Positions 1,976-35,132 of a stretch of DNA of 64,000 nt are shown here, in pieces. The notes under the pieces were generated by a model that ran no database searches, was not told the DNA's origin, and saw only the letters and a program-made list of their open reading frames with translations. Position 1 is the stretch's first letter. The number at the start of each line of letters is the position of its first letter. The stretch lies in assembly GCF_026013615.1 (NCBI RefSeq), contig NZ_JAPDPI010000008.1:62001-126000 (forward strand). The letters run 5' to 3'. The translations under genes were made by a program, and so were the position numbers. This stretch comes from Plebeiibacterium marinum. GTDB lineage: Bacteria > Bacteroidota > Bacteroidia > Bacteroidales > Marinilabiliaceae.

Positions 1976-3808
1976 ATGTCGCAACAGTATTCAGAAGATG
2001 CCATCAGAACCTTAGACTGGAAAGAGCATATTCGAAGAAGGCCGGGGATGTATATCGGGAAACTTGGTGATGGTTCGTATCAAGATGATGGTATTTATGT
2101 GTTACTAAAAGAAGTAATGGATAATTCTATCGATGAGTACATGATGGGGTTTGGAAAAAAGATTGATGTAACAGTGCAAGATGGGCAGGTTACCATAAGG
2201 GATTTTGGTAGAGGGATCCCATTGGGGAAAGTGATTGATGTTGCATCAAAAATGAATACGGGCGCTAAATACGATTCCAAAGTGTTTAAAAAATCTGTGG
2301 GATTGAATGGTGTCGGTATCAAAGCTGTAAATGCGCTCTCAACTATATTTACTGTTACTGCATTTCGTGATGGTGAATGTAAAAAAGTTGAGTTCTCAAA
2401 AGGGGATGTTATCAAGGATTATGAGATTGAGCCTACTTCGGAAGAAAATGGAACCTTTGTATCCTTTTGTCCCGATGCGGAGATTTTTGAGAAATATAAT
2501 TTCAGGGACGAGTATATTGAACCTCTTTTAAGAAATTATACCTACCTGAATGCAGGTTTGGCAATTAATTATAATGGGAAGACATATAAGTCGAAAAATG
2601 GATTGCTGGATTTGTTAAATGAAAACATGACTTCGCCAGGTATTTACCCATTGATTCATTTACAAGCTGAAGATTTTGAGGTAGCGTTAACCCATGGTAA
2701 TCAGTATGGAGAAGAGTATTACACCTTTGTAAACGGTCAGCATACTACTCAGGGGGGTACACATCAAATTGCTTTTCGTGAGGCATTGGTTAAAACAGTC
2801 AGGGAGTTTTATAATAAAAACTTTGATGTATCCGATATCAGGACGGGTGTTATTGCTGCCATTAGTATAAAAATTGAAGAACCTGTTTTTGAATCTCAAA
2901 CCAAAACAAAGCTGGGATCAAAAGATATGGGTCCCAATGGTCCTTCCGTAAGAAATTATGTATCTGACTTTATAAAAAAAGAATTAGATAATTTCCTTCA
3001 TAGGAATACAGAAACTGCTGAATTGTTGATGAGGAAAATTCTGGAATCTGAAAAGGAAAGGAAAGCCATTTCAGGAATTCAGAAGTTGGCCAAAGAAAGG
3101 GCCAAAAAGGTGAGCCTTCACAATAAAAAATTGCGTGATTGCCGTGTGCACTATAGTTCAAATAATGAGGATGCACCAAATTCGTCTATCTTTATTACCG
3201 AGGGAGATTCTGCCAGTGGCTCTATAACAAAGGCTCGTAGCGTTAATACGCAGGCGGTATTTAGTTTAAAAGGGAAGCCGCTGAATTCGTATGGTTTAAC
3301 CCGTAAAGTGGTATATGAAAACGAGGAGTTTAACCTTTTGCAGGCAGCATTAAATATTGAAGACGGCTTAGAAACCTTAAGATACAACCATGTTATCATA
3401 GCTACAGATGCTGATGTTGATGGAATGCATATCCGGTTACTTTTAATTACTTTCTTTTTACAATTTTTTCCTGAATTGGTAAAGAACGGGCATCTTTATA
3501 TTTTACAAACCCCTTTGTTTAGGGTGCGTAATAAAAAGAAGACTATATACTGTTATTCGGATGAGGAAAAAGATAAGGCGATAAAATCCTTGGGAGCAAA
3601 TCCTGAAATTACCCGCTTTAAAGGATTGGGAGAGATTAGCCCGGATGAGTTCAAGCATTTTATCGGAAAGGATGTAAGGTTGGAACCAGTCAGGATGAGA
3701 AAAGAAGACGCCGTATCCCAACTGCTTTCTTTTTATATGGGTAAAAATACACCCGACCGTCAGAATTTTATTATTGATAATCTGGTAGTAGAGGAAGATC
3801 CTGCATAA
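1976..3808 (+). CDS. parE: DNA topoisomerase IV subunit B
   Basis: This is the ATPase subunit of type IIA topoisomerase IV, which decatenates chromosomes together with ParC. The start chosen is the ATG at 1976, giving 610 residues that begin [10 protein letters not shown]; a 20-residue upstream extension from TTG 1916 looks non-native. Visible motifs are the GHKL ATP site (DNSIDE near residue 48, then GRGIPLG), the TOPRIM signature EGDSASGS near 408 and the metal-binding DADVDG near 478. The immediate downstream neighbour, 29 bases away, is the A subunit, and the short C-terminus matches the ParE rather than the long GyrB type. Assignment to topoisomerase IV rather than gyrase rests on this pairing and on length. 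Confidence 0.95.
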
Positions 3809-24710: not shown

Positions 24711-27700
24711 ATGAGGTGTGTCAAGTCTATTGTTATACTGATTATTATATACACATGTTGGTTTTGTATAGGTGTAGTTTCTGCTCAAACTTATTTTTTT
24801 GATAATTATAAAACAACAGATGGGATGGAATCTTCAAAGGTTTATTCCATTTGTCAAATGGAGGATGGGTTTATATGGCTGGGGACGGATATAGGTTTGT
24901 CGAGATTTGATGGGCTGCAGTTTAAAAATTATACCATAAAAAATAACCTTGGGAAAGGTGGAGTCAGGGAGTTGTTTCGAGATGTGAACAATGTACTGTG
25001 GATTGGGCACGAAGGGGGCCAGATAAGCCGTTATTTTAACAATCATTTTGAAGTAATTGAAGTTCCCGGAATTTCTAATAATATTACTTCGTTTTGTCAG
25101 GTTAATGAGCAGGAGATTTGGGTAACAACTCTTGGAAACGGTGTTTTTAAGATTGAAAATACTAATGCTCCCCTGGACCTTTTAAAAGTGGTTCCTGTTA
25201 CAAGCAAGAATGTAAGTAATGTGGTGTTCAATTCCTACATGTCAAAAAAACAGGGGGTGTTTTTGATAACAGATGTTGATATCCAGTTTTATGATATTGA
25301 TAAGGCTGAATTTAAAAGGTATAACCCCAGGAATCTTGATACTTATTTTCAATTTTCGGTTTTGTTTGAGGATAGTAAGGGCAATATGTGGTATGGCACA
25401 TTTAATGGTGGGCTATACAAACAGGATGCTTTAAGTGGTGAGGTACAATACTATGACATCAAGGATGGGTTGGCTTCTAATTGGATAACAGGAATTATTG
25501 AAGATAGAAATAGTAACATCTGGATAAGTCATTGGGATATGGGCAGTCGAGGTGGTGTTACCAAGATTTCCCCGGATGGATCTTTAAAAGTATTTGATAA
25601 AGAAAATGGGCTACATGACAATAAAATATGGTGCCTTGCAGAGGATATTGAAGGAAATATTTTAATAGGAACTACAGAGCATGGGTTGGATATTTTTAAA
25701 GGGGAACGCTTTGTGTCATTTACCTCTAAAAATGGATTGGCGGACAACCATATAAACTCAGTCCTGCAATTAACCGGTGGTGATTTCTGGATTGGTACAA
25801 ATAAGGGAATATCGTATGGCAATGTCGAAAAAGGAAATCTAAATAAATACAATCAGGACAATAACCAGATCAGCAATCAGATCAGGTTTTTTAAACGCGA
25901 TTTGAACAATAATATTTGGATTGGTACAGAAGATCAGGGAGTGGAACTATATGATGTCAGGAAAAAGCGTTTTGTTAGTCAGCCATATGTTAATCAGCAT
26001 CTGCCGCGTTTTTCAAAAGCTGTTTGGGCTATGGAGATTGATAAGAATAATATATTATGGATGGGAACCCCAGCTGGTTTGTGTGCTTATGATATCACTA
26101 GCAAAAAGTATGTAAAAACGTATGGCAGGATTGATAGTCTGCCTGCAAATGAAATAAAGTCCCTATTCTGTGATCATAAAGGCACTTTATGGGTTGGGAC
26201 GCAAAATGGAGGGGTCTCTTTTTTTAATGATGGATATTTCAGAAATATTGACCTCCCCGATAAAATTACGCCAAATTCAATTACGGAAAATTCACTAGGG
26301 CATTTAATAGTGGGTACGGAAGCTCATGGTGTATACGTGTTGGATGGAAATCGTGTAGTAAGTCAATATACCATTAGTGATGGTCTTTATACCAATAACT
26401 CAAGGTTTGTGATAACCGATGGCTTTGATAATATTTATGTGGGAACCACGATTGGATTGAATAAGATATTGCATGGTAAGGATGTTGTATTATCGTACTC
26501 TGAACGGAATGGATTTGTTGGTATTGAAGCAAAAGCCAATGCGTGTTTCAAAGATAATGTTGGGAGGTTGTGGTTTGGAACGGTTGGCGGATTAACCTGT
26601 TATGATCCATCAATAGATCAATCTGCCCCCGAGATTCCAATAACACATATTACTGCTTTTATGGTTAATGGTGAAGAAATAGATGTGAATAGAAAGAAGG
26701 TGTTTCCATCTTATAAAAACAATATTTTATTTCACTATAGCAGTATTTCTGTATATGATCCTTCTTCGGTTACTTATCATATTATGTTGGAGGGAGCCGA
26801 TGAAGATTGGGAGAGCACAGATCAGCAAAGGACGGCTAATTATAGGGCCTTGCCGCCAGGCAGTTATGAGTTTAAGGTTATGGCTTTTAATTCACACGGA
26901 CTGTCTGCTAAAGAACCAGTGTCTGTTGGTTTTATTATTCTGGCGCCTCTTTATAAGCGTCCGTGGTTTATAATGTTGATGGTTGTTTTTATAATTGGAG
27001 TAACTGTTGTTGTTGTACGTTTAAGGGAAAGGAATTTAAAGCGGGATAAAAAACTATTGGCAGAAAAGGTGGCGGAACGTACAAAGGAACTCAATAATGC
27101 CAAAATAAAACTGGAGGATCGTAATAATGATATTATGGATAGTATCCGTTATGCAAGGCGGATACAATCTGCTATAACCCAGATTGATATTCCTTTTGAT
27201 GATACATTTGTGTTTTTTAAACCTAAAGATGTGGTGAGTGGAGATTTTTATTGGGCTTCAACCCACAATGGTAAAGAATATCTTTCAGCTATTGATTGCA
27301 CCGGTCATGGGGTTCCGGGTGCATTTATGTCGGTAATTGGTTATACTTCTCTTAGTAAAATTATTGTTGAAAAGGGGATTATGAAACCTGCTGAAATATT
27401 GGATCAGTTGAACAGGGAGATTATTTTGCGGCTGAATCAGCGAGAGGAAGAGGAAGTGAATGATGGGATGGATTTGTCGTTGATTAGTTATGATAGTGCA
27501 ACGCGCATAATGGAATATGCCGGAGCTTATAATGCAGTGTGGATTGTGCGCCTGGGGGAACTGATTGAAATAAAGGCCAATCGTTTTGCAATCGGAAGGA
27601 CTACAGGTGTTGATAAGGTTTTTACCAATCATGAAGTGCAGTTGGAGAAAGGTGATATGGTATATCTGTTTTCAGATGGGTATGCAGATCAGTTTGGTGG

Positions 27701-27866
27701 TCCTAAAGGGAAAAAATATAAAGCCAGTGCCCTGAAAAAACTTATGGTAAAAATTAGTTCTCTGCCAGTCGACGAGCAAAAGGAATTATTGTCGTTGGAA
27801 CTTGATGAATGGAAAGGTGAATTGGAGCAAATAGATGATATATTAATTATAGGGCGAAGGTTTTAG
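24711..27866 (+). CDS. Two-component-type propeller sensor with SpoIIE phosphatase output
   Basis: A 1051-residue transmembrane signalling protein. After a signal peptide (about 1-26) come two propellers' worth of regulator-propeller repeats (about 30-680; recurring WLGTDIGLSRFDG-like units), a Y_Y_Y Ig-like domain (685-742), one membrane span (745-770), a coiled coil (770-805) and a cytoplasmic SpoIIE/PP2C phosphatase (about 806-1051) with metal-site segments VVSGDFYW, DCTGHGVPG and SDGYADQFGG. Hybrid two-component sensors use the same periplasmic part with a kinase; here the output is a Ser/Thr phosphatase. It directly follows the caspase gene and is paralogous to the protein at 49930. No STAS or anti-sigma gene is nearby. 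Confidence 0.9.
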   Translation: MRCVKSIVILIIIYTCWFCIGVVSAQTYFFDNYKTTDGMESSKVYSICQMEDGFIWLGTDIGLSRFDGLQFKNYTIKNNLGKGGVRELFRDVNNVLWIGHEGGQISRYFNNHFEVIEVPGISNNITSFCQVNEQEIWVTTLGNGVFKIENTNAPLDLLKVVPVTSKNVSNVVFNSYMSKKQGVFLITDVDIQFYDIDKAEFKRYNPRNLDTYFQFSVLFEDSKGNMWYGTFNGGLYKQDALSGEVQYYDIKDGLASNWITGIIEDRNSNIWISHWDMGSRGGVTKISPDGSLKVFDKENGLHDNKIWCLAEDIEGNILIGTTEHGLDIFKGERFVSFTSKNGLADNHINSVLQLTGGDFWIGTNKGISYGNVEKGNLNKYNQDNNQISNQIRFFKRDLNNNIWIGTEDQGVELYDVRKKRFVSQPYVNQHLPRFSKAVWAMEIDKNNILWMGTPAGLCAYDITSKKYVKTYGRIDSLPANEIKSLFCDHKGTLWVGTQNGGVSFFNDGYFRNIDLPDKITPNSITENSLGHLIVGTEAHGVYVLDGNRVVSQYTISDGLYTNNSRFVITDGFDNIYVGTTIGLNKILHGKDVVLSYSERNGFVGIEAKANACFKDNVGRLWFGTVGGLTCYDPSIDQSAPEIPITHITAFMVNGEEIDVNRKKVFPSYKNNILFHYSSISVYDPSSVTYHIMLEGADEDWESTDQQRTANYRALPPGSYEFKVMAFNSHGLSAKEPVSVGFIILAPLYKRPWFIMLMVVFIIGVTVVVVRLRERNLKRDKKLLAEKVAERTKELNNAKIKLEDRNNDIMDSIRYARRIQSAITQIDIPFDDTFVFFKPKDVVSGDFYWASTHNGKEYLSAIDCTGHGVPGAFMSVIGYTSLSKIIVEKGIMKPAEILDQLNREIILRLNQREEEEVNDGMDLSLISYDSATRIMEYAGAYNAVWIVRLGELIEIKANRFAIGRTTGVDKVFTNHEVQLEKGDMVYLFSDGYADQFGGPKGKKYKASALKKLMVKISSLPVDEQKELLSLELDEWKGELEQIDDILIIGRRF

Positions 27867-30154: not shown

Positions 30155-30185
30155 AAAAAAAGCTGTACATGTTGTATGTACAGCT
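30155..30185 (-). terminator. Terminator after Cys-rich peptide gene
   Basis: Perfect 10-bp arms AGCTGTACAT (30161-30170) and ATGTACAGCT (30176-30185), loop of 5; on the minus strand a T-run follows (30160-30155). It insulates the small Cys-rich gene from rpoN. Confidence 0.88.
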
Positions 30186-30213: not shown

Positions 30214-30435
30214 TTATTTTTTTTCGCCTTTACTACATTCTTTTTTGCACTCAGCCTTTTTCTCTTTAGAGCAGCATTCTTTTTTCTCTTTAGAGCAACA
30301 TTCTTTCTTCGCTTCTTTGTTGCAGCATTTTTTTTCGGTTTTTTGTGGTTCCTGAATAGCATCATTAGCTACTATTGGTGAAGCAATTGCTACCATAAAC
30401 ATAAAAAGGAATGAAACTGCGATTGATTTTTTCAT
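30214..30435 (-). CDS. Small exported Cys/Lys/Glu-rich protein
   Basis: A 73-residue protein: signal peptide 1-23 (MKKSIAVSFLFMFMVAIASP, cleavage about after IVA), then a mature part of 50 residues with eight Cys (37, 38, 46, 47, 54, 55, 63, 67), many as CC pairs in a repeated KECCSKEK unit, and otherwise Lys and Glu. No family is recognised. Paired cysteines in a short exported peptide suggest metal binding or redox buffering, but this is inference. It has its own strong terminator and is transcribed divergently from a sensor kinase gene, 186 bases away, whose periplasmic domain is also Cys-rich. The repeat also opens a Lys/Arg-rich frame on the same strand that I do not consider real. Confidence 0.75.
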   Translation of the reverse strand: MKKSIAVSFLFMFMVAIASPIVANDAIQEPQKTEKKCCNKEAKKECCSKEKKECCSKEKKAECKKECSKGEKK

Positions 30436-30502
30436 AATGTGTAAATTTAATTGTTATTAATTGTTGTCTTTTACAAAGATTAAATGAATAATCAATTCTT
30501 TT

Positions 30503-30540
30503 TGTTATCGTACTGTTAATCCGTGTTAACAGCTTGTTAA
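30503..30540. promoter_or_regulatory. Phased TGTTAA repeats: likely OmpR-type regulator box
   Basis: TGTTAT, TGTTAA, TGTTAA, TGTTAA begin at 30503, 30514, 30524 and 30535, that is 11, 10 and 11 bases apart, one per helical turn. The middle pair also forms the inverted repeat CTGTTAA/TTAACAG (30513-30532). OmpR/PhoB-family regulators bind such phased direct repeats. The cluster ends eight bases before the -33 element of the kinase promoter and lies between the kinase operon and the divergent Cys-rich peptide gene. Confidence 0.65.
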
Positions 30541-30547
30541 TTTGTAT

Positions 30548-30576
30548 TTGGGCATTGCCTATTATTTCTATTTTTG
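30548..30576 (+). promoter_or_regulatory. Bacteroidota-type promoter of sensor kinase operon
   Basis: TTG at 30548-30550 and TATTTTTG at 30569-30576, 18 bases apart, match the phylum consensus. The predicted start is near 30583, about 40 bases before the kinase ATG. The phased repeats end immediately upstream. Confidence 0.65.
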
Positions 30577-30621
30577 TATTGGTTTCGAATATAGTAACAT
30601 AGATTGTAAGGAAAAAGTTTA

Positions 30622-31875
30622 ATGGGGAGAAAAATTGTAAAACAATGGTGGCTGGCAATAGTAACTTTTTTGGTGCTTTTATGTCTGGTGATCATTCAGG
30701 TTTTGTTTTTGGTGAAGTCCGCAAGGCTCGAGGAAAAGCATTTTAACCATAGGGTGGTACTGGCTCTTAGGGAAGCCCGAAACGAAATTGCCCGGGAGGC
30801 CAATATGTGTAATAATATGCATAGTTATGTTTGTGGCAACCAGTGTTCTACAGATATGCAGTATATTAATTTTCAGAAGGTAGATAGTATTATACAGTCA
30901 AATTTATACATACATAAAATCCATCTGGAATATAAATTTGAGTTCATCAATGAAAATGATAGTGTCAAAGATAAAATATGTGTTACTTGTTACGAACAGT
31001 CATTAAATGGTTTGCTTGCCCAAAATGGTATTAAGTTATTAATAGAATTTCCAGATAATAGTAAGTTTGTTTTTGCTCAGTTAGGTACGCTGTTTTACAT
31101 CTCTATTGCATCTATATTATTTGTCATGATTTCTTTTGTTATCATTTATAGGTTGTTTACCAAAGAGCAATCTATATTATCAAATACAAAGTATTTTATT
31201 GATAATATGGTTCATGAGTTTCAAACGCCTTTGGCAAATGTTAAGTTTGCTTCAGGACTGATCAAAAAAAAGGTGAACGCAAGCGATGAGCGTGAAAAGG
31301 TTCTTCAGTACACGCAATTGATTCAGGATGAGAACGAAAAACTCAGGGGGCATGTGGATGATATTCTTAAAGTGGTATCCTTATATTCAGATAAAAAAGG
31401 GAATGAAAAGGTGGATGTGCGTCAAGTTCTGAATGCCTGCGTCGAGTCATTCCGTACTGATGTAGAACGGAAACATGGGGAGATAAAGGTTGATTTTTGT
31501 GCAGGTGATTTTGTGGTGAAAGGGGATGCAACACATATTAAGCATGTTTTTAGTAATGTTATTGATAATTCAATAAAATATACCAAACAGGCTCCATATA
31601 TAACAATAGAAACCATAAACAAAAGGGGTAAACTTGTTGTTTCAGTAAAAGATAACGGGGTTGGAATACCGTCTGCTGAGCTCGATAAAGTTTTTGAAAA
31701 ATACTATCGTGTTTCAACCGGAAATATTCATGATATTAAAGGATTTGGCCTGGGGCTTAATTTTGTTAAAAATGTTGTGGATAAGTATAAAGGGGCAGTG
31801 AAAATTAAAAGTGAGGTTAATAAAGGTACAATGGTGATTATTGAGTTGAAACTGGATTGTTCAGTTAAAAAGTAG
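30622..31875 (+). CDS. Sensor histidine kinase with Cys-rich periplasmic domain
   Basis: A 417-residue inner-membrane kinase: TM1 at about 11-31, periplasmic domain 35-153, TM2 at about 155-178, HisKA with phospho-acceptor His198 in MVHEFQTPL, and HATPase_c (NVIDNSIKY, DNGVGIP, GFGLGLNFV). The periplasmic part contains Cys63, Cys71, Cys75 (with His67 between) and a CVTC pair at 120-123, suggesting metal or redox sensing; this is inference. It is followed 40 bases later by its response regulator and preceded by a promoter and phased repeats shared with the divergent Cys-rich peptide gene. Confidence 0.9.
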   Translation: MGRKIVKQWWLAIVTFLVLLCLVIIQVLFLVKSARLEEKHFNHRVVLALREARNEIAREANMCNNMHSYVCGNQCSTDMQYINFQKVDSIIQSNLYIHKIHLEYKFEFINENDSVKDKICVTCYEQSLNGLLAQNGIKLLIEFPDNSKFVFAQLGTLFYISIASILFVMISFVIIYRLFTKEQSILSNTKYFIDNMVHEFQTPLANVKFASGLIKKKVNASDEREKVLQYTQLIQDENEKLRGHVDDILKVVSLYSDKKGNEKVDVRQVLNACVESFRTDVERKHGEIKVDFCAGDFVVKGDATHIKHVFSNVIDNSIKYTKQAPYITIETINKRGKLVVSVKDNGVGIPSAELDKVFEKYYRVSTGNIHDIKGFGLGLNFVKNVVDKYKGAVKIKSEVNKGTMVIIELKLDCSVKK

Positions 31876-31915
31876 ACAATTAGTTTGGTGCCTTTTATTT
31901 TGTTAATGAGATATT

Positions 31916-32614
31916 ATGGACGTGAATCCAAAGAAAATATTATTAGTTGAAGATGATACCAGTATGGGTTTCCTTTTGGTTGAGTTTTTAGAATCAAATG
32001 GTTTTGATGTTAAACTGTATAAGGATGGTTTACAGGGATTAAATGCTTTTAATAGTTATAAATTTGATTTTTGCATATTGGATGTGATGTTGCCTGGCCT
32101 TGATGGATTTTCTATTGCTGAAAAAATAAGGGAAAAGGATAAGGAGATACCTGTAATTTTTTTAACAGCGAAAACGTTTAAGGAAGATAAAATAAAGGGT
32201 TTTAACTTAGGTGTTGATGATTATGTTGTGAAGCCTTTTGATGAAGATGAGCTGCTGTGTCGTATAAGGGCCATTATGAGTCGATGTGATCCCGTGGTTC
32301 AGCCGGTTTATTGTGCAGATGAATATACAATAGGGGGATTTGTATTTGATTATAAAAACCAGCTTCTAAAAATTAAGGAAGAATCAAAGCGGCTCACTTA
32401 TAAGGAAAATGAAGTGCTGAAAATGTTGGCGGCTTCAAAAAATGAATTGGTCAAGCGTGACGATATCTTAAATAGCCTTTGGGGCGATAATGATTATTTT
32501 AATAGCAGGAGTCTCGATGTTTTTATTGCAAAACTGAGAAAATATTTAAAAGCAGATTCATGTATCAATATTGAAAATGTACCTACAGTTGGCTTCGTTC
32601 TAAAAGATGTTTAA
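31916..32614 (+). CDS. OmpR-family response regulator
   Basis: A 232-residue cytoplasmic transcription factor. Receiver domain 1-120 with the acidic pair Asp13/Asp14, phospho-acceptor Asp56 (CILDVMLPG) and conserved Lys106 (VVKPFD). The C-terminal winged helix (about 135-232; LTYKENEVLKML, SRSLDVFIAKLRKYL) is of the OmpR/PhoB type. It is encoded directly behind the sensor kinase and presumably receives its phosphate. The phased TGTTAA repeats upstream of the operon are the obvious candidate target, implying autoregulation plus control of the Cys-rich peptide. Confidence 0.93.
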   Translation: MDVNPKKILLVEDDTSMGFLLVEFLESNGFDVKLYKDGLQGLNAFNSYKFDFCILDVMLPGLDGFSIAEKIREKDKEIPVIFLTAKTFKEDKIKGFNLGVDDYVVKPFDEDELLCRIRAIMSRCDPVVQPVYCADEYTIGGFVFDYKNQLLKIKEESKRLTYKENEVLKMLAASKNELVKRDDILNSLWGDNDYFNSRSLDVFIAKLRKYLKADSCINIENVPTVGFVLKDV

Positions 32615-32960: not shown

Positions 32961-35132
32961 ATGAAAATGGTGTTTAACAAAGCGTTGTTTGTCCTAGGAT
33001 GTTTCTTTTTTGTTTTTTGTCTTACATTTTCCCAGAATTCAGATGGAAAAAGAAATGCTAAGTTGTTCAAGCGGGCTTTGCATCTTGCCGATGAGGGTAA
33101 TTATAAGGATGCAATCAGTAGTTTGAAGGTTATTTTGCATAGTGATCCCAAAGATTTAGATGCCCTGTTTAATATTGGTTTATGTTATTTGAATACTTCT
33201 GATGGGGCTGATACTGCTTTGATATATTTTAACAAAGGGATGGATGTTCTTACAGATGAACAAAAGACCGGTTATTTTGGGCGGGAGTTTGGGATGTCTA
33301 TTGGTAAGGCCTATCAGGTTTTGCTGAAGCCGTTAAAAGCTGTTGAGATTTATGAAGATCTGTTGGTGCACCTTGGAGATGAGGATACCTTGGTGCAAAA
33401 AGAATTAGAACGCGAGATACAGGTTTGCCATAATGCTAATTTTTTTCTGGAGCATCCCATTGATATAGTTGTAGAGAATATGGGTAGTGAAGTAAACTCA
33501 ATGTACGATGACCATAGTCCCTTGGTTGGTGTAAGCGAGAATCAATTGTTTTTTACTTCCCGCCGGAATTGGATTAAACTATCGCTTCTTCCTGATGGAC
33601 AATATGCTGAAAAGATTTACTCTGTACCGTTATCTGCTAAGAACTGGGAAAGTGCCCGTTTGCTAAAGGTGTTTTTCCGTCAAAATGAGCACGAAGCAGC
33701 AGCTTCTCTATCTCCCGATGGGGATGATATTGTTTTGTTTAGAAATGATGAGCATGGAAAGAGTTTGTACATCAGCCATTTTGATGGTGATAATTGGTCG
33801 GAACCCGAAAAGCTTCCATTTCCCATAAATAGTTTTGCTCAGGAAACGCATGGGTCATTATCTGCAGATAAGAGTACCTTGTTTTTTACTTCAGACAGGG
33901 AAGGTGGTTTTGGAGGTATCGATATTTATATGTCAAAAAAAAATGCCAAAGGGGTTTGGGGTAATCCTATCAACCTTGGTGCAAATATTAATACTGAGTA
34001 TGATGAAGAAACCCCGATGATTCATTATGATGGAAAAACATTGTATTTTTCTTCGGAAGGACATAATTCAATGGGGAGGCTGGATGTTTTTTACGCCCAA
34101 ATGAATGCTGATTCAACATGGGGGCGACCAGTGAACCTGGGGTATCCAATTAATACCCCGGATGATGATTTCTTTTTCGTTCCAACGGTGAATAAAAGCC
34201 ATGCATATTATGCTTCCTCTAAATTTGATGATAATTATGGAGGTTCAGATATATATCATGTGAAGTTTGAAACTGATGATAATACCGAACTGGCAGTTGT
34301 GGAGGGTAGGATTGACGAGACCTTAGGTACTAATATGAATGATATGAGGATTTTGGTAACCAGGCGCAAGGATAAGAGGCTGGTTGGAGATTATCGCCCA
34401 AATCCTACTAACGGAAATTATATGTTGTTTCTTGAGGTTGGTTATGAGTATGAAATAAAAGAAACAAATTCGCAGCAGGAGAAAGAGAAGGTGTCATATG
34501 TAAATGCTACCCCGGATATGAGTTATTTGGATAAGCGGACGCCGGTTGTTTTTACTGATGTGGCTATGGATGCGCCTCTTACTAAGGCCGATGTTGAAGT
34601 TGTAACTGACCCGGGACAAGATGCAATTGAGCATGAGGTGAAAGGTGTGGTTGAGGGAGAAAATGTGGTAATAAATGAGCCGTCTGTTGAAGGTGTTGCA
34701 GAGGATAAGGGGGTTGGTGCTGAACGTAGACCGGAGAGGGAGGATGTTGGTATATCACAAGTTGAAATAGTAATGGAAACAGAAAACAATACCTCTACAG
34801 TTTCTAATGCAGTTGTGAAACCTAAAACTGTTGTGCCGGTTATGATAGTTGAAAGGGATGATAATTTTGTTATCAGTACACGTCCCGGCTATACAATACA
34901 GATTTTAGCACTTGAAAAAGGGCCGTTAAAAGATATGAGCTTCTTTACCAGACGTGGAGTTAATGGGGTTGTGGAGGTGAAATGTGTTGATGGATTTACC
35001 CGTTATATACTTGGAGAATTTAATGGTTATCGGGAGTCGCTGAAAATTAAGAAAAAGTTAGTGGCTGATGGTTATTTTAAGGATATATGGATCAGACCAT
35101 TGAGAGATTTGGATAATTTAAAATTAAAATAA
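32961..35132 (+). CDS. Envelope TPR / PD40-propeller / SPOR-like protein
   Basis: A 723-residue exported protein. Signal peptide 1-24 (ending CLTFSQ), a TPR pair at about 28-150, then PD40/WD40-like beta-propeller repeats (about 165-430; STLFFTSDREGGFGGIDIYM, KTLYFSSEGHNSMGRLDVFY). After a carboxypeptidase-like beta region and an acidic, low-complexity linker (about 535-640) a SPOR-like module closes the protein (YTIQILALEKG to IWIRPL). TPR plus PD40 resembles PorE and related T9SS-era envelope proteins, but the usual OmpA peptidoglycan-binding end is replaced by SPOR, which binds denuded glycan. It is alone between intergenic gaps; role unknown. Confidence 0.8.
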   Translation: MKMVFNKALFVLGCFFFVFCLTFSQNSDGKRNAKLFKRALHLADEGNYKDAISSLKVILHSDPKDLDALFNIGLCYLNTSDGADTALIYFNKGMDVLTDEQKTGYFGREFGMSIGKAYQVLLKPLKAVEIYEDLLVHLGDEDTLVQKELEREIQVCHNANFFLEHPIDIVVENMGSEVNSMYDDHSPLVGVSENQLFFTSRRNWIKLSLLPDGQYAEKIYSVPLSAKNWESARLLKVFFRQNEHEAAASLSPDGDDIVLFRNDEHGKSLYISHFDGDNWSEPEKLPFPINSFAQETHGSLSADKSTLFFTSDREGGFGGIDIYMSKKNAKGVWGNPINLGANINTEYDEETPMIHYDGKTLYFSSEGHNSMGRLDVFYAQMNADSTWGRPVNLGYPINTPDDDFFFVPTVNKSHAYYASSKFDDNYGGSDIYHVKFETDDNTELAVVEGRIDETLGTNMNDMRILVTRRKDKRLVGDYRPNPTNGNYMLFLEVGYEYEIKETNSQQEKEKVSYVNATPDMSYLDKRTPVVFTDVAMDAPLTKADVEVVTDPGQDAIEHEVKGVVEGENVVINEPSVEGVAEDKGVGAERRPEREDVGISQVEIVMETENNTSTVSNAVVKPKTVVPVMIVERDDNFVISTRPGYTIQILALEKGPLKDMSFFTRRGVNGVVEVKCVDGFTRYILGEFNGYRESLKIKKKLVADGYFKDIWIRPLRDLDNLKLK

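Follow-up and report, generated by a model that had tools for sequence, protein, structure and literature searches.

The window examined here is a 64,000-nucleotide stretch of a Plebeiibacterium marinum assembly (contig NZ_JAPDPI010000008.1, positions 62,001 to 126,000). Near its midpoint, a small gene for a cysteine-rich peptide with a predicted export signal lies divergent from the genes of a membrane histidine kinase and an OmpR-type response regulator (Table 1). The three genes form a conserved module, and the spacer between the two transcription units carries a footprint of three TGTTAA-type repeats at fixed spacing from promoter boxes on both sides. An earlier note on this DNA had reported a 73-residue exported protein with eight cysteines opposite the kinase. 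Its coordinates and cysteine count are right, and export is predicted. Its 'four CC-type positions' are in fact three CC pairs and two single cysteines.

Table 1. Features of the peptide-kinase-regulator locus and a related repeat site at a PHO4-type gene
Feature	Position	Strand	Remarks
Cysteine-rich peptide gene, predicted exported	30214..30435	minus	73 amino acids, 8 cysteines; residues 1-24 resemble a Sec signal peptide
Intrinsic terminator of the peptide gene	30161..30185	minus	10-bp stem and T run
Putative -7 promoter box of the peptide gene, AATCTTTG (minus-strand reading)	30474..30481	minus	footprint 32 bp away; consensus TAnnTTTG
Possible fourth half-site, TGTTAT	30503..30508	plus	11 bp ahead of the first repeat; by eye
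Footprint TGTTAA-N4-TGTTAA-N5-TGTTAA, presumed operator	30514..30540	plus	spacer shared by peptide and kinase genes
Putative -7 promoter box of the kinase operon, TATTTTTG	30569..30576	plus	footprint 29 bp away
Histidine kinase, HisKA and HATPase_c domains	30622..31875	plus	417 amino acids, two hydrophobic segments; domain scan
Predicted periplasmic sensor region, residues ~34-153, with Cys63, 71, 75 and 123	30721..31080	plus	alignment and model
OmpR-family response regulator	31916..32614	plus	nearest named family RprY, below RprY cut-off; profile scans
11+11 triple at a PHO4-type gene	L090:1501-1528 = G000:C139:13131-13158		also L087, L088, L089, L092, L093, L094, L100, L112

Genes of the module

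The regulator gene lies directly 3' of the kinase gene and encodes Response_reg and Trans_reg_C domains, which makes the protein OmpR-type rather than NtrC-type. Against the NCBIfam RprY model it scores 246.7-247.4 bits, under the 370-bit cut-off. The canonical RprY of genome G000 is encoded at a separate locus (C99) and scores 394.9 bits, over the cut-off. In the kinase, 19-residue windows above 1.6 start at residues 4-19 and 149-163. Cysteines 63, 71, 75, 120 and 123 fall between these two hydrophobic segments.

The cysteines of the window peptide occupy positions 37, 38, 46, 47, 54, 55, 63 and 67. The N-terminus is signal-peptide-like, as judged by eye and with a simple filter on composition, and contains no cysteine; residues 25-73 comprise 17 lysines, 11 acidic residues, no aromatic residue and no histidine. 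The peptide reached the cut-off of no family in Pfam or NCBIfam, a sub-threshold match to CD20 being the only one in Pfam, and curated metallothionein families matched neither it nor eight other peptides scanned. It was the sole match in the window to a filter for small, signal-bearing, Cys/Lys-rich open reading frames (ORFs), a filter defined after peptides of this kind had been seen. Comparison with the peptide of Plebeiobacterium sediminum (L038) gave pN 0.125, pS 0.71 and dN/dS ~0.06, with synonymous sites near saturation. The gene does have the strong terminator that had been ascribed to it (-13.2 kcal/mol, z -4.9).

Conservation of the module

Orthologs were collected by a pattern-seeded, non-exhaustive scan of a species genome collection with sensor alignment, which gave 48 loci. 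L038-L081 (44 loci) were used, making 45 with the window. Their hosts are Marinilabiliaceae, Prolixibacteraceae and unclassified Bacteroidales metagenome-assembled genomes (MAGs). A peptide was scored as present if it was divergent, signal-bearing and had at least four cysteines and eight lysines. Such a peptide adjoins the kinase in 42/45 loci and the regulator is present in 44/45. In L041 and L042, from two Saccharicrinis MAGs, the peptide lies ~5 kb off on the same contig, and in L068, from one MAG, no peptide was found. All eight other genomes of the genus carry a kinase ortholog (52-71% identity), and one clear peptide homolog per genome (E <= 2e-14) was found in 9/9 genus genomes.

At the order level, 145 of 393 genomes match the sensor profile at 1e-15. 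Forty-four loci were examined, of which four are repeats and three (L031, L186 and L187) offer <200 bp upstream. In 16 of the 44 a divergent exported peptide is present, quite different in sequence and containing 3-14 cysteines. A tree was built from 58 kinases: the window, 19/44 inner loci, 36/44 order-level loci and two paralogs, after L031, L034, L175, L186, L187, L190, L199 and L201 had been dropped from the order-level set. A branch with 100/100 support sets 32 rows apart as one clade, and all 12 outer rows of this clade, which add nine GTDB families, carry a peptide. L041 and L068 are marked as peptide-bearing in the tree, although the peptide is 5 kb off in the former and was not found in the latter. 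Three peptide cases (L185, L033 and L196) lie inside an otherwise peptide-free sister group. L166-L169, L173 and L181 were inspected separately from the 44-locus set; five of the order-level loci outside the tree (L167, L168, L169, L173 and L181) are also peptide-bearing. Among 395 genomes drawn from the whole phylum, sensor matches at 1e-22 occurred only in G000 and in G510, a member of the same class. G510 has a divergent 135-residue ORF with a signal-like start and seven cysteines, and no footprint at up to three mismatches. The search across Bacteroidota that the earlier note had proposed thus found the divergent arrangement far beyond close relatives, in 42/45 loci and all 12 outer rows.

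The sister kinases had first been labelled 'RprX-type', a name abandoned once the canonical RprXY locus was found separately. Six sister kinases (L178, L180, L182, L183, L184 and L203) are divergent from a secreted SCP/CAP-domain-like protein, as judged by eye. A TGTTAA-N5-TGTTAA pair or close variant lies ~70-135 bp upstream of the peptide-free sister kinases L183, L184, L189, L191, L194, L197, L203 and L204.

Cysteines of the sensor and the peptide

The sensor cysteines named in the earlier note are largely kept in the 45 sequences, with one exception. Cys63 is found in 43/45, Cys71 in 42/45 and Cys75 in 41/45. The described Cys120-Cys123 pair holds for one member, since Cys123 is kept in 37/45 and Cys120 in only 5/45. 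At least two cysteines occur in the matching stretch of 13/13 listed outer sensors. Two paralogous kinases of G000, L002 and L003, have no cysteine before the phospho-acceptor histidine; L002 is the kinase adjoining the canonical RprY. An AlphaFold model of the sensor (predicted confidence, pLDDT, 70.8) contains helices at 2-62, 64-70 and 77-97 followed by three strands, and would place Cys63, Cys71 and Cys75 around the inter-helix turns.

From residue 26 onward, the 42 peptides consist of 33% lysine, 15% glutamate and 11.3% cysteine, with no histidine, tryptophan or tyrosine. Phenylalanine makes up 0.1% and leucine, isoleucine and valine together 3.5%, so that these four hydrophobic residues stay below 4%. 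Because of this composition a disordered chain is expected, and an antimicrobial-peptide or folded-toxin reading was dropped for the same scarcity of hydrophobic residues. High cysteine content with few fold-forming residues is a metallothionein-like composition, and it is found in these 42 peptides. Each has 4-8 cysteines at variable spacing, an odd number in 16/42, and 45 adjacent cysteine pairs occur in all. Since cysteine number and spacing drift and odd counts are common, one fixed disulfide fold is unlikely. Peptides of different clades have almost no common sequence. Some distant peptides have gained histidines (3 in L165, 5 in L171 and 6 in L185) and CDPxxC stretches (L163, L165 and L171), features that resemble metal ligands.

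A shared footprint at fixed promoter spacing

The TGTTAA repeats were first spotted by eye in a few loci of the genus and were then put to the test on all 44 orthologs, 41 of which have three half-sites ahead of the kinase (0-3 mismatches, spacing 10-12), while shuffled spacers have a mean of ~5.4 mismatches under looser spacing. The consensus is TGTTA[A/T]-N4-TGTTAA-N5-TGTTAA (10+11 spacing); an N5/N5 pattern missed the peptide spacer at <=2 mismatches in 9/9 genus genomes, and N4/N5 was adopted. The strict 10+11 form occurs with <=1 mismatch in 33/42 peptide-bearing spacers and with <=3 in 38/42. The footprint of L081 lies beyond the searched length, and two of the three repeats adjoin the relocated peptide in L041 and L042. 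The possible fourth half-site recurs in L038, L039, L040 and L012, seen by eye rather than by systematic count.

Promoters were called with the -7 box consensus TAnnTTTG, as given in the portion of PMC7366714 available. On the kinase side the box lies 27-29 bp from the footprint in 41/42 loci, and on the peptide side a box beginning with T or A lies 31-32 bp away in 38/42. In 16 divergent loci the spacing recurs at 31-32 bp in nine and at 28 bp in eight; promoter spacing does not fit in L171, L175 and the f72 loci L176, L177 and L179. A common footprint at fixed promoter spacing fits control of the peptide by the regulator.

Copies of the site in 60 genomes of the family were also counted. The exact 10+11 site occurs 21 times in 20 genomes, and its backward control not at all. 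Twenty of the 21 copies adjoin a peptide, 17 at kinase-peptide loci and three (G011, G435 and G020) without the kinase. In G000 alone, 10+11 sites at <=2 mismatches number nine against one in the control. Taken with the 11+11 sites described in the Discussion, the half-site is probably common to related regulators, and it is the 10+11 spacing that sets the peptide loci apart.

The remaining exact copy, at G441:C65 (L225:8334-9759), stands where a phosphohexomutase-like gene ends, ahead of an MFP-MacB-TolC-MFP operon. It was dropped as support, being the sole triple among 11 loci compared, eight of them from G441's genus; in that genus, most of the seven remaining genomes keep a half-site pair.

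Peptide loci without the kinase

In seven genomes of three genera (g4, g13 and g18) the footprint, with 0-2 mismatches if an initial TGTTAT is counted as a match, faces a TolC-MacA-ATPase-MacB operon. The operon domains, verified in G011, are OEP (TolC-like), HlyD_D23 (MacA-like), ABC ATPase and MacB_PCD/FtsX. The peptide beside it has 4-6 cysteines in six genomes and is broken in G035. A relaxed -7 box lies 32 bp from the footprint on the peptide side in 5/7 loci. The TolC side, unlike the kinase side, has no -7 box at 27-29 bp, so that joint control of the peptide and the TolC operon stays conjectural.

Five of the seven genomes were searched for the kinase and contained an RprX-like paralog and no ortholog. 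A regulator relative with 49-51% identity occurs in g4. In G011, G029 and G435 it adjoins a gene of the TsaD family (verified in G011) with no adjacent kinase, and in G029 a different HisKA kinase lies a few genes away. The relative in G020 is a fragment with no match to a DNA-binding domain, and in G035 no relative was found except an RprY-like paralog. A LytTR-type regulator and a kinase adjoin the TolC-linked locus in several genomes (verified in G011). The broken peptide of G035 (L287 ~3000-3740) contains no cysteine, and the footprint beside it remains with two mismatches.

Other genes of the window

The gene after the regulator (window 32961-35132) encodes a TPR/PD40 protein, as it does in five named relatives (6/45 loci). 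Elsewhere, window 24711-27866 encodes what appears by eye to be a SpoIIE-like phosphatase fused with a periplasmic propeller sensor.

Discussion

The module looks like an unnamed device that answers cysteine-reactive stress, probably metal, outside the inner membrane. We give a probability of about 0.45 to an envelope-response device for thiophilic metal, built like ZraP/ZraSR, that induces a disordered periplasmic thiol chelator. The kinase would read a thiol-reactive signal through its periplasmic cysteine cluster (63, 71 and 75, mostly with 123), and the likeliest signal would be a soft metal, for example Cu(I), Ag, Zn or Cd. Once phosphorylated, the regulator would bind the TGTTAA-type repeats midway between the two divergent promoters and activate both the peptide gene and its own operon. 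The peptide, reaching the periplasm through Sec, would serve as a Lys/Glu-rich disordered thiol carrier, and metal bound by it would lower the signal and close the loop. The gene set and its conservation, the footprint with its promoter spacing, and the linkage of footprint and peptide are observed. Phosphotransfer, DNA binding and export are what knowledge of the protein families would predict, and we infer the ligand, the chelation and the feedback. Because there is one obvious output gene, the peptide itself is the likely effector.

The layout of ZraP/ZraSR, with the peptide gene divergent from a kinase-regulator operon and a repeat site in the spacer, is found here by sequence alone. In Escherichia coli, as described in the accessible part of PMC8249747, a periplasmic metal-linked protein is likewise divergent from a two-component system, and ZraR binds chiefly at a single site in the zraP/zraSR spacer, further targets having been detected by chromatin immunoprecipitation sequencing. 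The same text lists ZraR as NtrC-type, whereas the window regulator is OmpR-type. The window peptide also differs from ZraP, being cysteine-rich, low in fold-forming residues and without a match to a ZraP-like Pfam family. RprX/RprY is likewise a kinase-regulator pair of Bacteroidota and provides the nearest curated regulator family; it is set apart by the sub-threshold regulator score, the separate RprY locus of G000 and the cysteine-free sensor of its kinase. On the best reading of the sequences, the proposed device would lie outside both the ZraSR and the RprXY families. CpxP/CpxRA and SilE/SilRS also pair a two-component system with a small periplasmic protein that adjoins it and is controlled by it, as proposed here, and the outputs CpxP and SilE are not known to be cysteine-rich disordered peptides. 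Bacterial metallothioneins are cysteine-rich, variable in length and free of tryptophan and tyrosine, like the present peptides, which differ in their predicted export and, in the nine scanned, in matching no metallothionein family. A literature search, with most subscription journals out of reach, found no paper on the module.

Several observations weigh against the metal-response model. In some loci the peptide is kept although sensor cysteines are lost: Cys75 and Cys123 in L073 and L081, Cys63 and Cys71 in L070, Cys71 and Cys75 in L078. The sensor model is of moderate confidence and gave no PDB fold match at E <= 0.001. No metal gene is a conserved neighbour, the next cluster after kinase and regulator reaching 9/45 loci. 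The footprint is weak in L074, L075, L080 and L078 (4-5 mismatches), and also in L171 and L176. Across the nine genus genomes, 10+11 sites at <=2 mismatches number 48 against 40 in the control, and an 11+11 variant of the half-site 41 against 21 in the backward control. In 9/9 of these genomes an 11+11 triple with 0-2 mismatches lies between LysE-type and PHO4-type transporter genes (families verified in G000). The regulator may act at other targets as well, or repeats of this sort may be recognised by a PhoB-like regulator. An 11-bp repeat spacing ahead of a phosphate transporter is suggestive of a PhoB-type box, and this triple is perhaps a Pho box of Bacteroidota. Because of this site the odds of the metal-response model were cut from 0.5 to 0.45 and a PhoB-like alternative was added. 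The metal or redox response module of the earlier note therefore survives in part. The common footprint fits regulator control of the peptide; against it stand the half-sites elsewhere. The ligand and chelation stay conjectural, no metal gene being a conserved neighbour.

An unlikely alternative, though one to be taken seriously, is that disulfide, oxidative or polysulfide stress is what the sensor cysteines detect and that the peptide is a sacrificial thiol buffer of the periplasm, not a metal chelator. Cysteines occur in both sensor and output, the CC pairs of the peptides can form disulfides, and RprY, the nearest named regulator, has in Porphyromonas gingivalis a link with sodium and with oxidative stress, according to the available portions of PMC3646045 and PMC6032018. 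The canonical RprXY, however, occupies its own locus in G000, and the histidines and CDPxxC stretches gained by distant peptides are not needed for redox buffering. Those gains, with the drift and odd counts of the cysteines, lead us to prefer metal chelation over redox buffering with modest confidence.

It is rather improbable that detoxification is minor and that the peptide mainly tunes the sensor domain of the kinase, directly or when metal-loaded, in the manner of ZraP or CpxP. The output gene occupies the common spacer as in zraP/zraSR, ZraP is termed an accessory protein of its pathway in the part of PMC8249747 available, and peptide and kinase are co-conserved. Yet peptide and footprint are kept in three genera whose searched genomes showed no kinase ortholog, and the near absence of common sequence between the peptides of different clades would be odd for a specific binding partner.

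The TolC-linked loci raise a further reading, to which we give little credence, in which a MacAB-TolC-type pump expels the peptide after it has been loaded in the periplasm. As periplasmic metallothionein export, a doubtful version, a thiol peptide made on demand would load soft metal and leave through such a pump; it is equally doubtful that some lineages wired the peptide to a sensor and others to a pump. According to PMC5985334 (available in part), a disulfide-bonded peptide exported by Sec is ejected from the periplasm by MacAB-TolC, and according to PMC7403778 (likewise in part) MacAB secretes siderophore products against oxidative stress. The likeness is one of neighbourhood, a Sec-type, cysteine-containing peptide adjoining a TolC-MacA-MacB operon in the seven genomes, six with the peptide intact. 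Their arrangement is probably a single rearrangement in one family, the TolC side lacks the spaced -7 box, no footprint with <=3 mismatches was found near the related TolC genes of G022, G437, G429 and G015, and the pump operon is absent from the window's own locus.

Still less probable is service of the repeats by a PhoB-like or other OmpR-family regulator, with the peptide answering, for example, phosphate and the adjacent pair partly involved. The half-sites before the PHO4-family transporter are the same at 11+11 spacing, and peptide and site persist without a kinase ortholog, the g13 regulator relative being fragmentary (G020) or not found (G035). Against this, the 10+11 spacing is a distinct one that accompanies the kinase pair from family to family, 20 of its 21 exact copies adjoin a peptide, and the half-site pairs before many sister kinases fit autoregulation. 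Finally, the peptide is repetitive and variable and has a broken, cysteine-free copy in G035, but its dN/dS of ~0.06, the maintained promoter spacing and footprint, and one clear copy in every genus genome make it highly improbable that it is a by-product of slippage in Lys/Cys codon repeats with no role.

If the metal-response model is correct, these bacteria possess a periplasmic metallothionein served by a sensor of its own. Were the pump reading true, metal would be removed bound to a disposable ribosomal peptide, and such peptide-borne metal export would be new. The module itself is an unnamed and widely kept system, probably for envelope sensing, whose footprint is defined, whose output is a single obvious gene and whose sensor residues are conserved. 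Its peptide keeps its gene position, its promoter spacing and its richness in cysteine while its sequence drifts almost freely, a pattern that family searches miss.

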